From: Spirochaetales bacterium
GTDB lineage: Bacteria > Spirochaetota > Spirochaetia > Sphaerochaetales > Sphaerochaetaceae
Reading direction: 5' to 3'
NCBI GenBank assembly: GCA_022788185.1
Contig: JALEVV010000052.1
Coordinates: 1-43,670 of the forward strand
DNA length: 43,670 nt
Under the pieces are notes generated by a model, which saw only the letters and a program-made list of their open reading frames with translations, ran no database searches and was not told where the DNA came from. The position numbers and the translations under genes are program-made. Below, piece by piece: positions 1,649 through 7,225 of the stretch; positions within the stretch are counted from its first letter, which is position 1, and every line of letters starts with the position of its first letter.

Positions 1649-4585
1649 ATGAGCAGGATAGTCTTCCTGTTCATTTATCTTTTCATAACCGTGATGAACA
1701 TCGTGCTTTGGAAGAAGTGTTCATCATTCACATCCAGGGAAGGCATTCTTTTCCGCCGTTCCCTCCTTTGCACTGTCTTCGTGACCATCCTCTACATGGC
1801 AACGGTACTCATTGACAGCTATAGGGTGATAAACTGGATGTACAGCCTCTATTTCTCATCCATCGACGTGATGCTCTATTTCGTGATGGGCTACCTTTTC
1901 GCGCTTTCGGGAAAGACCGGTAACAGAGTGCTGCTGCGCATTTTCAGAAGGGCATGCCTGATATTCCTTTTCATCGACATAACGCTCCTGATGACCAATC
2001 CCATGACCGGTGCCGTGGTCGGGTATTACATGGTTCCTGATAAGCTTGCTTCCTGGAACTTCAGGGGCACGTTTTTGTATAACATCCATCTCGGATTCTG
2101 CTACACCATGCTGCTTGCGGGTTTTTCGGCGGTCGTCATCGAGTCGCTGACCCTTCCTTCCATCTACAGACGTTACTACAACCGGGTGATAATAAGCATA
2201 CTGGTCGTTGTCGGCATCAATGCGCTTTACCTGCTTATGATGGACCTTGTCAGCATTGACCTTTCAGTCGAGACCTACAGCATCCTGGGGTATCTCATCT
2301 ACTGGAACTCCTTTGTTGCCCGGGACAGATACCTTCTTTCCCAGCTGAAGGAAATCATCTTTGAGGACATACTGCAGCCGGTATTCCTCTTTGACTGGAA
2401 CGAGCAGCTGGTCTACTGCAACAGGAGTGCGGAGGAGATGGTCGGACCGCTCAGGGAAAAGTGCACGATAAGGGAATTCATGGAGCTGGGAGGCTTTGAG
2501 GACCGGATCGGTTCGTTTGATGAGGACACCCGCTTTTACTGGAACAGCCGCAGGAACAGAAGGGCTTCCTATATCTGTGATTTCAGGACCCTGACGGGTG
2601 ATGGCGGTGAGATAATAGGGCGTTTCTTCATCTTCACGAACAATACGCTCGGAACCGACCCGCTTACGGGTTTCCAGACCGAGAGTTACTTTCAGAGCCA
2701 CTATACCGAGCTTCTCGGCCGTGATGCCCATGACCTTATGGTGTGTGTATCGGACCTTAACAGACTTACGATTCTCAACAATACGGTAGGCCGGGAAGGG
2801 GGTGACCGGGCGATCGAGGTGCAGGCCATGCTGCTGAGACAGCACCTTCCCTCATCGACCGTCTTTGTCAGGCTTCAGGATGCCTTCCTCTGTGCCGTGG
2901 TTCCCTCAATTAGTCAGGAAGTCCTCTCTGACCTGATGGCCGCAGCCAATGCGGACATCTCCGTGGAGGATGGCTTCCCGTTCCGCCTTACCTTCAACTA
3001 TGCCATAACATCCGCTGCCAGTGCCTCGGACATCCATGATGCCATCGATGGTGCCCTGACGATTCTCAGGACAAGGAAGCTGCTGGACAGCGGTTCGGAC
3101 CGTTCCTCAGTCATAGACTCCCTCCACCAGATGCTGATGGAGTGCGATGCGGAGACCGAACTTCATGTAAGGCGCACCAGGGAGCTGGGAGACAGGCTGT
3201 CCTACCGCATCGGTCTTTCAGGGTACGAACGGGATCAGCTCTCGCTGCTCTGTCTCTTCCATGATATCGGAAAGGTCGGTATACCCAGGGAGATCCTGAA
3301 CAAGGCGGGAAAACTCAACGACAGTGAGCGGGAGATAATGCGCAGTCATGCCGAAAAGGGCTACAGGATTGCCAGGGCCACGCCCGAGCTTAACGTCATA
3401 GCCTCCGCCATAAGGCATCACCATGAGAACTGGGATGGCAGCGGTTATCCCGACGGACTCAGGGGAGAGGCCATTCCCCTCCTTTCACGGGTGATTTCCG
3501 TCGTGGATGCTTATGATGCCATGATTTCGGATAGGCCTTACCGCAGCGCCATGAGTCATGAGGCGGCTGTCGCAGAGCTGAAAAAGCATGCCGGAAGGCA
3601 GTTCGATCCATATATCGTAAACTGTTTCCTTTCCATGGTGGATACAAAGGGTGAGACTGTCGTCCCTGAAGCGGAGGCGGAGGAGAGCGATGCCGGAAGC
3701 GAGCTTACGGGACTGGTCAATCCGGTAAGCTACTCCAGATATACCGTCGGGGAAGGCATGCGTATCACGAATGTGGACAGGAACTTCGAGCACATGACGG
3801 GTTATACCGCCTATGATGTCCAGAAGCTCGGTCTCAGCCAGAATGACCTTATCTTCGAGGAGGACAGGGAGCAGTACTGGAGTCTGGTAAATGAACAGAT
3901 GGCAAAGAGTGAAATAATCTATCTGGAACACCGGCTGAGGCGAATGGACGGAACGGGCCGTTACGTTTACTGTACCGGCGTTCTGACAGGCAAAGAACAC
4001 ACCATCATAGTCTCCGACATCACCGACTCCGTTTCAGTGCAGCTGCAGGTGGGTATTGCGAGAAACCGTGTAATGATGAGCCTGCACAGGCTGGAGGAGG
4101 CGAACCAGAAGGATCCGCTGACCGATGTGCTCAACAGGTCCGCCTTCAGAAAGAGCTGTGAGCGCATCTTTGAGACATCTCCTTTCTGTCTTCTCATAAT
4201 GCTCGACATCGACAACTTCAAGAAGCTGAACGACACCTATGGCCATCCCATCGGGGACAGTGCCCTGATTTCGGTGGCTGAGGCGCTTACGGAGGTGCTG
4301 CCCGCAAACTCAGAAACTGCCAGAATGGGCGGGGACGAGTTCTGCTCCGTAATTCCGATGAAGCGCCGCCTGACACCGGCCGAGACCGATTCCATGTGCG
4401 AGAGCATCAGGATCAGGGTAAGGGACAGGATAAGAAGTGATAAAGTGTCCCCGACCGTGTCCATGGGCTCTGCCTGGGGTGACGGCAGGTACTCTGAGTT
4501 CGATGAGCTGTACAGACGCGCTGACAGGGCGCTCTACCGGGCGAAGAACACCGGTAAGGACAGATCCGTCACGGATTTTGAGTGA
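1649..4585 (+). CDS. Membrane-anchored dual c-di-GMP enzyme (PAS, degenerate GGDEF, HD-GYP, PAS, GGDEF)
   Basis: The 978-aa protein starts with roughly seven hydrophobic segments (residues ~1-225), a sensory membrane module. A PAS-like region (~235-325) follows, then a GGDEF-like domain whose active site is lost: the signature position reads RLQDAF (~408-413). The HD-GYP phosphodiesterase domain is intact, with FHDIGKVGIP near 536 and HHHENWDGSGYP at ~590-601. After an acidic linker come a second PAS (~695-800) and a C-terminal diguanylate cyclase with LDIDNFKKLNDTYGH and an intact GGDEF at ~894-898. The inhibitory RxxD site that normally precedes GGDEF reads PANS, so product inhibition at that site is probably absent. 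The protein could both make and hydrolyse c-di-GMP, with the degenerate GGDEF perhaps sensing GTP. The balance of activities and the signals cannot be read from sequence. Confidence 0.9.
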   Translation: MSRIVFLFIYLFITVMNIVLWKKCSSFTSREGILFRRSLLCTVFVTILYMATVLIDSYRVINWMYSLYFSSIDVMLYFVMGYLFALSGKTGNRVLLRIFRRACLIFLFIDITLLMTNPMTGAVVGYYMVPDKLASWNFRGTFLYNIHLGFCYTMLLAGFSAVVIESLTLPSIYRRYYNRVIISILVVVGINALYLLMMDLVSIDLSVETYSILGYLIYWNSFVARDRYLLSQLKEIIFEDILQPVFLFDWNEQLVYCNRSAEEMVGPLREKCTIREFMELGGFEDRIGSFDEDTRFYWNSRRNRRASYICDFRTLTGDGGEIIGRFFIFTNNTLGTDPLTGFQTESYFQSHYTELLGRDAHDLMVCVSDLNRLTILNNTVGREGGDRAIEVQAMLLRQHLPSSTVFVRLQDAFLCAVVPSISQEVLSDLMAAANADISVEDGFPFRLTFNYAITSAASASDIHDAIDGALTILRTRKLLDSGSDRSSVIDSLHQMLMECDAETELHVRRTRELGDRLSYRIGLSGYERDQLSLLCLFHDIGKVGIPREILNKAGKLNDSEREIMRSHAEKGYRIARATPELNVIASAIRHHHENWDGSGYPDGLRGEAIPLLSRVISVVDAYDAMISDRPYRSAMSHEAAVAELKKHAGRQFDPYIVNCFLSMVDTKGETVVPEAEAEESDAGSELTGLVNPVSYSRYTVGEGMRITNVDRNFEHMTGYTAYDVQKLGLSQNDLIFEEDREQYWSLVNEQMAKSEIIYLEHRLRRMDGTGRYVYCTGVLTGKEHTIIVSDITDSVSVQLQVGIARNRVMMSLHRLEEANQKDPLTDVLNRSAFRKSCERIFETSPFCLLIMLDIDNFKKLNDTYGHPIGDSALISVAEALTEVLPANSETARMGGDEFCSVIPMKRRLTPAETDSMCESIRIRVRDRIRSDKVSPTVSMGSAWGDGRYSEFDELYRRADRALYRAKNTGKDRSVTDFE

Positions 4586-4589
4586 TGTC

Positions 4590-4618
4590 TTGTCGATTTC
4601 ACACCTGTTTATTACATT
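4590..4618 (+). promoter_or_regulatory. clpB promoter
   Basis: TTGTCG (4590-4595), 17-nt spacer, TACATT (4613-4618); CATTAT at 4615-4620 is an alternative -10. Transcription would start near 4625. No CIRCE (HrcA) repeat is visible. The 5' leader of about 36 nt contains the hairpin described separately. Confidence 0.5.
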
Positions 4619-4636
4619 ATCTCATGTGTGGAGCGT

Positions 4637-4655
4637 TCTCCTGAAATACAGGAGA
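4637..4655 (+). promoter_or_regulatory. Hairpin sequestering the clpB Shine-Dalgarno (candidate RNA thermometer)
   Basis: TCTCCTG (4637-4643) pairs perfectly with CAGGAGA (4649-4655) across a 5-nt AAATA loop. The 3' strand contains the AGGAG ribosome binding site (4650-4654) of clpB, whose ATG is at 4661. A short stem that hides the Shine-Dalgarno of a heat-shock chaperone gene is the textbook layout of an RNA thermometer. It does not match the ROSE or fourU consensus, so the mechanism is inferred from position and pairing. Confidence 0.55.
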
Positions 4656-4660
4656 TAATT

Positions 4661-7225
4661 ATGGATTTCAATAAATTTACAATCAAAATGCAGGAAGCCG
4701 TTGAGCGGGCAAACCAGTTTGCGGGTGAGGAGAATCACAGCGAACTGACCTCTGCCCACATCCTCATTGCGCTTCTTGACCAGAAGGAAGGTGTCATACG
4801 GCCCCTTCTTGAAAAACTGGGCGTCAGCGTGCAGAGCGTTGATGACGCCATGAGGAAGGTCCTTTCCTCCCTGCCCAAGGCTTACGGCAGCGTTCAGAGG
4901 AGTCTGTCCCAGAGGTGTTATGAGGATCTTACCCAGGCAGAGAAGATCGCATCATCATTCAAGGATGAGTATACCAGTGCGGAGCACTTCCTGCTGGCAC
5001 TCATCGACTCCTCCGGTGCCGAGGGTGATGCCTTAAGAAACCTCGGCCTTAAGAAAGAAGAGGTGATGAAGGCCCTTCAGACTATCAGGGGCAATGTCAG
5101 GATCACGAATCAGGATCCTGAGGCAGGTTACCAGGTGCTGGATAAGTACTGCCGTGACCTCACCAAGGCCGCCAGGGAGGATAAGCTCGATCCCGTCATC
5201 GGCCGTGATGAGGAGATCAGGCGTGTGATGCAGGTCCTGTGCAGGAAGACGAAGAACAACCCGGTACTCATCGGTGAGCCCGGTGTCGGTAAGACCGCCA
5301 TCGTTGAAGGGCTTGCCCAGCGTATCGTCAAGGGTGATGTCCCTGAGTCCCTGAAAACCAAGAGACTCCTTTCCCTGGATGTGGGCTCCCTCGTTGCAGG
5401 CGCGAAGTTCCGCGGTGAGTTCGAGGAGAGGCTCAAGGGCGTGATCAATGAGGTGACCAAGAGTAACGGTGAGGTCATCCTATTCATCGATGAGCTGCAC
5501 ACGATCGTCGGTGCGGGCGCATCGGAGGGTTCCACCGATGCCTCCAACCTCATCAAGCCGGCCCTGGCCAGGGGCGAGCTTCATGCCATCGGTGCCACGA
5601 CCCTTGATGAATACAGGAAGTACATCGAGACCGATAAGGCCCTGGAGAGAAGGTTCCAGACCGTTTACACGAAGGAACCGACCGTCGAGGATACCATCGC
5701 AATCCTGAGGGGTCTGCAGCCCAAGTATGAGGTGCACCACGGTGTCAGAATCAAGGATGAGGCGCTTGTTGCCGCCGCAACCCTTTCCGACAGGTACATC
5801 ACCAACCGTTTCCTCCCCGATAAGGCCATAGACCTGGTCGATGAGGCCGCTTCCCAGCTCAAGATGGAGATCGAGAGCCAGCCTGTCGAGCTGGATAAGA
5901 TCGACAGGAAGATGCTCCAGCTCTCGGTTGAGAAGAGTGCCCTTTCAAGGGAGAAGGATGATGCCAGCAGGGAGCGCCTTGAGAAGATCAATGCCGAGCT
6001 TGCCGACCTCCAGTCCAGACACGATGCAATGCATCTGCAGTGGAGCAATGAGAAGGAAGTCATTGACGGCCTCAAGAAGAAAAAGAGTGAACTGGAGAAG
6101 CTTCAGAACGAGCAGGCTGCCGCCGAAAGGGAAGGAAACCTCAACAGGGCTGCCGAGATCAAGTATGGCCTGATACCCTCCGTTCAGAAGGATATCAGGG
6201 AGCGGGAGGAGAAGCTTAAGGCCACTCAGGGCAGTGAGCACAGGCTCCTCAGGGAGGAAGTTACCGAGGACGACATTGCCAGAATCGTCTCTTCCTGGAC
6301 CGGTGTTCCCGTGAGCAAGATGATGGGCAGTGAGATGCAGAAGTACCTGAAGCTTGAGGATACCCTCGCAGAGAAGGTCATCGGTCAGGATGAGGCCATC
6401 AGGGCCGTGAGCAACGCCATCAGGCGTAACAAGACCGGTATCGGCGATGAGCACAGACCGCTTGGCTCATTCCTCTTCGCAGGACCCACCGGTGTAGGTA
6501 AGACCCTGCTTGCCAAGGTGCTTGCGGACTTCCTCTTTGATGATGAAAGGGCGCTGACCCGTATCGATATGTCTGAGTACATGGAAAAGTACTCGGTGTC
6601 CAGACTCATCGGAGCGCCTCCAGGATATGTGGGCTATGATCAGGGCGGTCAGCTTACCGAGGTGGTCAGGAGAAGACCCTACTCGGTAATCCTCTTCGAT
6701 GAGATCGAGAAGGCGCACCCCGATGTCTTCAACATCCTGCTTCAGGTGCTTGATGACGGACGTCTGACCGATGGTCAGGGCAGGGTGGTGGACTTCACCA
6801 ACACGATCATCATCATGACCAGTAACCTGGCATCCCGTGAGATTCTGGAAGGCAGCGTTAAGAAGGAGGAGATCCTTTCCGTGATCGAATCCCACTTCAA
6901 GCCTGAGTTCATCAACCGTATCGATGAGATCGTCATCTTCAATCCGCTCGGTAAGGAACAGGTGTCGAAGATCGTTGAGCTTCAGCTCGGCATCCTGAAG
7001 AACCGTATCGCAAAGCGCGGTTACACGCTCACCTGGGATGAGAGTGTCGTGGCTTACATCAGCAATGTGGGCTTCGATCCCGATTTCGGTGCCCGCCCGA
7101 TCCGCCGTGCGATCCAGAACGAGATCGAGAACACCCTTGCAAAGGAGATGCTCTCAGGCTCGCTTCCGACCTCAAAGCCGATAAGGCTTACCGTAAAGGA
7201 CGGTGCAATAGCAGTCACCGCCTGA
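4661..7225 (+). CDS. clpB: ClpB disaggregase, AAA+ chaperone
   Basis: ClpB is a hexameric ATPase that threads aggregated proteins through its central pore together with DnaK. At 854 aa it has the normal length and all parts: the N domain (~1-145, [17 protein letters not shown]), NBD1 with Walker A GEPGVGKT (205-212) and Walker B LFIDELHT, a long coiled-coil middle domain (~400-520) that distinguishes ClpB from ClpA and ClpC, and NBD2 with GPTGVGKT (608-615), the pore loop near GYVGYDQGG, and [14 protein letters not shown]. The ATG at 4661 is preferred over an in-frame GTG at 4628 because AGGAG lies 6 nt before it and the N domain starts there. The gene is monocistronic, with its own promoter, a hairpin over the ribosome binding site, and a strong terminator. 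Confidence 0.98.

Follow-up and report, generated by a model that had tools for sequence, protein, structure and literature searches.

The clpB locus and its leader

The window (the whole stretch of 43 670 nt that was analysed) is one contig of a draft genome of 2.27 Mb in 90 contigs. It was compared with the genomes of the window genus (g1, 16 genomes, referred to as the genus) and of two sister genera, g10 and g16. These relatives are spirochaetes, which bears out a preliminary description of the DNA as spirochaete-like. A clpB gene encoding a protein of 854 aa starts with an ATG at position 4661, and was the only whole-protein match in the source genome. The perfect 7 bp stem that had been described over the Shine–Dalgarno sequence (SD) of this gene was confirmed, with the SD in the 3′ arm and 6 nt between the SD and the ATG. 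The features of the region are as follows.

4590..4595, + strand: −35-like box TTGTCG of the clpB promoter; a TTnnC-type box with a spacing of 16–18 is present in 15/16 clpB leaders of the genus, and the pattern match is perfect, as it is for groES
4613..4618, + strand: −10-like box TACATT, identified on the same basis; the start point is predicted from it
4625..4636, + strand: predicted mRNA 5′ end with unpaired sequence TGTGTGGAGCGT ahead of the stem; the consensus drawn from the 16 genus leaders contains TGTG
4637..4643, + strand: 5′ (anti-SD) arm TCTCCTG, from sequence, folding, genus comparison and the swap test
4644..4648, + strand: loop AAATA, from sequence and folding
4649..4655, + strand: 3′ arm CAGGAGA including the SD AGGAG (4650–4654), from sequence, folding, genus comparison and the swap test
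4661..7225, + strand: clpB (ClpB chaperone/disaggregase) with an ATG start, from the open reading frame and protein matches

The unpaired stretch ahead of the stem may possibly serve as a ribosome standby site.

Promoter and transcriptional control

The two boxes of the clpB promoter are separated by a 17 bp spacer. Judging from this conserved promoter, the transcription start would fall near 4625 and give a leader of about 36 nt, the length proposed earlier. The stem would lie wholly downstream of this start, so a start within or beyond the stem, which would have refuted the preliminary description, is not predicted. A TTGnCG-like box and a TAnnTT-like box 16–18 bp apart occur in 15/16 clpB, 15/15 groES and 16/16 dnaK leaders of the genus, and the predicted clpB leaders have a median length of 34 nt (range 30–44 nt). 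In the source genome the pattern has two perfect matches, which are clpB and groES, and dnaK is among five sites with one mismatch; a reversed control pattern gave one site per strand. Because the pattern was derived from these genes, the matches indicate consistency and are not proof. The clpB promoter, with 8/12 consensus positions by count, was missed by a promoter scan that required at least 9 of 12.

A sigma factor of approximately 290 aa resembling RpoH (174–184 bits, against a curated cut-off of 323) is encoded in 14 of the 16 genus genomes, and in 11 of these 14 its gene is no more than 1 kb from groES (one copy is at G000:C49:31417–32199). This makes it a candidate for the heat-shock sigma factor of the lineage. 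The promoter type shared by clpB, groES and dnaK together with the RpoH-like sigma gene suggests that transcriptional heat control may well exist, and the earlier proposal that translation-level sensing replaces transcription control is therefore doubtful. HrcA had no match in any of the 16 genus genomes, 12 of which are at least 90% complete. CIRCE, searched for with up to three mismatches, was absent from 14 of the 16, including the source genome, consistent with the earlier remark that no CIRCE element is visible; the pattern matched in the other two genomes and a control pattern matched in four of the 16. The repeat and an hrcA gene, which together would indicate CIRCE/HrcA control, were not found together, and control of clpB by this system was rejected given the lack of an HrcA match in the genus and of CIRCE in the source genome.

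Three other readings of the leader region were also rejected. No intrinsic terminator was found in 4300–4800. An upstream in-frame start is open in the window (GTG at 4628), but only 6/16 genus leaders have such a start within 36 nt, and its distance takes four different values among them. For a transcript beginning upstream of the −10 box, pairing of the −10 flank with the rest of the leader was examined, and the swap test described below gave no significant effect in any group taken separately (2276 of 20 000 for g1, 1163 for clade a of g10, hereafter g10a, and 2850 for g10 outside this clade). When all g10 were pooled the same test gave 4/20 000, which we tentatively read as a contrast between subclades. 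Inverted repeats starting in the −10 box were seen in leaders L061, L064, L065 and L067 and in several g10a leaders (TATATTTCCATT...AATGGAGGTATA; TATATTCC...GGAATATA). They lie on the side expected to stay untranscribed, and no swap test within a subclade reached significance. By eye, a TGTG or TGTAC motif several nucleotides past the clpB −10 box is present in the window (4625–4630) and in many g1, g10 and g16 leaders; leaders of groES and dnaK do not carry it regularly.

Strength of the hairpin in the window

Folding of 4625–4680, as the preliminary description had proposed, recovered the hairpin with a z-score of only −1.15, and 27 of 200 shuffled sequences folded equally well. Pairing of the window SD had a dinucleotide-shuffle p of 0.109, and p was below 0.05 in seven of the 16 genus leaders. 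Taken alone, the window hairpin is thus only weakly distinguished from chance; we judge it to be non-random because it is conserved with compensating changes across the 16 genus leaders.

A background set of 54 SD-bearing genes, clpB included, was assembled from the window and five other stretches of the same genome (about 143 kb). The duplex between the upstream arm and the SD of clpB was the strongest of the 54 (−11.7 compared with a mean of −4.24), and clpB was one of only two genes with an SD pairing probability (P) of at least 0.95, while 20/54 reached 0.7. The cost of opening the window SD, 4.3 kcal/mol, ranked 16th of 54 and was no outlier. The mean over the 16 genus clpB leaders, 4.73 kcal/mol, was raised over the background mean of 2.86 kcal/mol (p 7.5e-4), and the genus means for the comparison genes were 2.24 kcal/mol for groES and 1.41 kcal/mol for dnaK. 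Mean clpB opening costs were 7.86 kcal/mol in g10a, 5.31 in other g10 and 2.11 in other genera; five g16 leaders, with 2.62 kcal/mol, were not raised over the background.

Conservation and compensating changes

clpB is present in all 16 genus genomes and its N-terminal part was matched in 124 of the 139 genomes of the family. Leaders were read for 16/16 g1, 45/45 g10, 25/26 g16 and 21/37 from other genera, where 23 were fetched and two (L096 and L102) were not located. L019, a C-terminal fragment, and L031, a second clpB of genome G064, were excluded, and identical leaders were collapsed to one in the swap, SD-pairing and background-pairing counts. A contig scan retained 80 of at least 584 matching stretches, and the best among those retained was just 69% identical.

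The SD lies within an upstream hairpin in the minimum free energy structure of all 16 genus clpB leaders, and the stems differ in sequence. The arms include TCTCCTG/CAGGAGA (the window), TCTCCAA/TTGGAGA, TCTTCTTTTT/GGAAAGGAGA, TCCTCC/GGAGGA and CCCTCCG/TGGAGGG. The pair preceding GGAG (5′ arm to SD side) is A-U in five of the leaders, U-A in four, G-U in one and G-C in one; in the remainder this position is unpaired (4/16) or paired downstream (1/16).

In the swap test, each leader was divided into a half with the 5′ arm and a half with the SD arm, and native combinations were compared with halves exchanged between species in 20 000 permutations. For the 15 distinct genus leaders the native mean was −10.47 kcal/mol and the swapped mean −7.57 kcal/mol, and none of the 20 000 permutations was as good. 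The structure is thus kept by compensating changes, one of the properties of a zipper-type thermometer, and the conservation and compensation in relatives, whose absence would have refuted the preliminary description, are present, with no gain from column covariation. In a MAFFT alignment, pairs slid by one column scored equally well. The g10 leaders with a local hairpin (18 distinct) gave 77/20 000, and 0/20 000 when pooled with the genus (n=33), the g10 rows having been picked by eye, after viewing, from the 29 leaders outside clade a, of which 20 were used. The 16 leaders of clade a, also delimited by eye, gave 332/20 000. Values for the 31 remaining clpB leaders then collected (12595/20 000), the 15 genus groES leaders (1241/20 000) and g16 (1351/20 000, n=18, not significant) were higher. 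When the 5′ half was shuffled, p was below 0.05 for 13/15 genus clpB leaders and 0/15 groES leaders. One genus leader, L008, is an outlier with an upstream SD pairing probability of 0.36. A covariance model built from these leaders, with 150 candidates scored per genome, recovered the clpB leader in 13 of the 16 genus genomes and missed it in three, and the best match elsewhere had an E-value of 0.352.

At the DNA level the arms make up an inverted repeat, so they could represent the operator of a transcription factor, or simply chance, which the shuffles of the single sequence would allow. This is very improbable, as the arm sequences change while their complementarity stays, with no swapped set as good as the native one, and by inspection the hairpin tracks the SD at a variable distance from the promoter.

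Comparison with groES, dnaK and more distant clpB genes

The clpB SD is paired upstream with a probability of at least 0.7 in 15/16 genus leaders, 25/25 distinct g10 leaders outside clade a and 15/19 distinct g16 leaders, as well as in 2/16 of g10a and 8/20 from other genera. An upstream SD hairpin at this threshold was found in none of the 15 groES and none of the 16 dnaK leaders of the genus. The groES and dnaK SDs do pair to some extent once the coding region is included; in the predicted transcript up to codon 20, at 37 °C, the SD core was paired with P of at least 0.8 in 13/15 clpB, 6/15 groES and 4/16 dnaK leaders. Outside the family, 20 clpB leaders were sampled from the 88 matching genomes of the class. 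An SD was found in 14 of these, of which four reached a pairing probability of 0.7 and none reached 0.95.

The hairpin structure and its selection are well supported by these data. We consider it reasonably probable that the short clpB leader hairpin burying the SD is a selected translational brake, leaving the release signal aside. Selection on the structure, together with the established knowledge that covering an SD lowers translation, implies that the hairpin probably lowers clpB translation.

Thermal stability

The SD is predicted to be paired in the leader structure at normal temperature, as in zipper-type RNA thermometers, in which heat shock would melt the hairpin, free the SD and switch on clpB translation directly. 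The SD-covering leader hairpin of a heat-shock gene, conserved with compensation, is consistent with such a thermometer, as are the lack of an HrcA match in the genus and of CIRCE in the source genome. The isolated window hairpin, however, has a predicted ΔG of −9.3 at 37 °C and −8.3 at 42 °C with a predicted Tm of approximately 86 °C, and the values across the genus hairpins are −6.4 to −11.6 kcal/mol at 37 °C and 67–92 °C for the Tm. By the same method, the SD hairpin of Escherichia coli ibpA has a ΔG of −4.1 at 37 °C and a Tm of 67 °C. The mean SD pairing for 15 genus clpB leaders (predicted start to codon 20) was 0.91, 0.90, 0.89, 0.88 and 0.87 at 30, 37, 42, 45 and 50 °C, respectively, and for the window it went from 1.0 to 0.99 between 30 and 50 °C. 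Over the same range, SD pairing fell from 0.77 to 0.59 for groES and from 0.61 to 0.35 for dnaK. A Pseudomonas ibpA variant with a perfectly paired SD is described as too stable to respond to heat (PMC3669281). Together, the stable stem, the flat SD pairing and the Pseudomonas variant make a switch-like zipper unlikely in this species.

The predicted open fraction of the clpB SD rises between 37 and 42 °C by 2.9-fold in the genus mean, 1.7-fold in the window, 2.4-fold for the local type in g10 and 3.8-fold in g10a, compared with 1.6-fold for groES, 1.8-fold for dnaK and 1.4-fold for ibpA. The genus mean favours a thermometer, and a modest heat effect in a deeply repressed regime may occur. As the rise for ibpA is only 1.4-fold, this calculation would miss a known thermometer and so cannot settle the heat response. 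Of the candidate RNA thermometer proposed in the preliminary description, the conserved SD-covering hairpin stands, whereas heat sensing by melting does not find support in the predictions, poor judge though these are. Overall, the hairpin looks too stable for a simple heat-melting thermometer, and we regard direct activation by melting as rather unlikely.

An Rfam search of 4300–5000 with E-values up to 5 found no ROSE or FourU match and listed only a sub-threshold Mu-gpT-DE (E-value 0.015, 21.9 of 49 bits). In the fourU type, four U residues lie opposite the AGGA of the SD; the anti-SD arm in the window is UCUCCUG. Identity of the hairpin with ROSE or FourU elements, already denied on first description, was rejected.

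Possible mechanism of the proposed brake

If the hairpin is a translational brake, the short clpB leader would fold into a stable structure in which the SD is buried, and ClpB output per mRNA would be held low in unstressed cells. The unpaired 5′ stretch is the probable landing place of the 30S subunit, which would then compete with the hairpin; alternatively, a factor may open the hairpin. Heat would raise ClpB output mainly through the promoter common to groES and dnaK, and any direct boost, through cheaper opening of the hairpin, would be modest at most. The brake would thus be akin in logic to RNA thermometers, with a doubtful response to temperature.

Release in trans, with a chaperone, RNA-binding protein or small RNA acting on the 5′ stretch (TGTG...) or the loop and opening or closing the hairpin, for example in proteostasis feedback, would fit a hairpin so stable that opening needs help. 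TGTG beside the predicted 5′ end in the genus consensus could be the site of action, though it may instead be part of the promoter start region, and E. coli IbpA is described as repressing its own translation via the 5′ UTR (PMC10474464). We regard such a gate as unlikely.

Somewhat less doubtful, and a real possibility, is a hairpin with no regulatory response that only sets a low fixed rate of translation or shields the mRNA at its 5′ end. The nearly nil response to temperature in the predictions is consistent with this, as are 5′ hairpins in g10a that leave the SD out. A stabilizing hairpin would not need to cover the SD, yet SD cover recurs in three genera in different forms.

Predicted forms of SD cover in the sister genera

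In g10a, which comprises 16 g10 species (leaders L042, L044–L047, L049–L051 and L053–L060), the SD lies mostly outside any local hairpin. Pairing is predicted between the leader sequence UAUAGAACUCUGGAGG and CUG CAG AGC GCU AUA, which are clpB codons 10–14, and the members carry TATAGAACTCTGGAGG or a near variant complementary to these codons. GCT and ATA are used in 16/16, CTG in 15/16 and AGC in 14/16 (AGT in the other two), while the same amino acids vary in codon elsewhere. The mean codon entropy ratio is 0.16 for codons 11–15 compared with 0.77 for 45 other codons, and g10 species with other leaders mostly have different codons at positions 10–14. The g10a clade is predicted to have a long-range stem between leader and coding region that covers the SD and has frozen synonymous sites, unlike the hairpin in the window.

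In g16, a hairpin over the SD is predicted in 19 of the 25 leaders. Thirteen are interrupted, e.g. UGCUUC-A-UACC/GGUG-A-GGAGUA, and three are CCUCAU/GUGAGG. The leader of Spirochaetales bacterium Spiro_05 (L119) is identical to the g16 leaders L264 and L266. That g16 corresponds to Sphaerochaeta is only a guess.

A broader proposal, which we make tentatively and hold to be somewhat short of probable, is that clpB translation in this one spirochaete family is gated by SD-covering RNA structures of at least three forms, rebuilt in the course of evolution. These would be the local hairpin in the window genus and part of its sister genus, the longer interrupted hairpin in g16 and the leader-to-coding stem freezing synonymous codons in g10a. 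They would respond to heat or folding stress via ribosome competition or a factor rather than simple melting.

Relationship to known systems

In zipper thermometers of heat-shock genes, such as the ROSE and ROSE-like elements of ibpA, the SD of a chaperone gene is likewise paired within a short hairpin of the leader, and fourU in agsA and the Synechocystis hsp17 leader are further zipper thermometers of heat-shock genes. The clpB stem differs from the ibpA type in being perfect and more stable than that of E. coli ibpA, in having no Rfam match and in its target gene. In the thermosensor of E. coli rpoH mRNA, the early coding region pairs with the start region and holds it. This resembles the leader-coding pairing predicted in g10a, though the gene and the pairing differ, while clpB in the window uses a local leader hairpin. 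Among spirochaetes, the leader of the Leptospira LigA and LigB mRNAs is said to be temperature-regulated through structure (Matsunaga et al. 2013, named in PMC5243855), a likeness by description in another gene and another organism. No clpB leader thermometer in a spirochaete was found in the literature searched, which leaves out most subscription papers.

If the brake is real, a major heat-shock gene would be subject to an added post-transcriptional layer of control, and this in a lineage of spirochaetes for which HrcA/CIRCE control was not found. SD cover re-invented several times, together with compensating stems and frozen codons, would form a natural experiment on the limits of SD-covering regulators, and one that bears on whether very stable hairpins can respond to stress.

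Neighbouring genes and assembly

In the window, a large open reading frame (1649–4585) with HD-GYP- and GGDEF-like motifs, recognized by eye, lies between a TetR-like open reading frame (958–1563) and clpB. In several relatives, the C-terminus of a TetR-like protein seems, by eye, to be encoded directly ahead of the clpB promoter. The second clpB start in the g10 genome G064 (L031, contig C54) is near-identical to that of the g1 genome G012 (L008/L032), and for this reason it is probably contamination of the draft genome.
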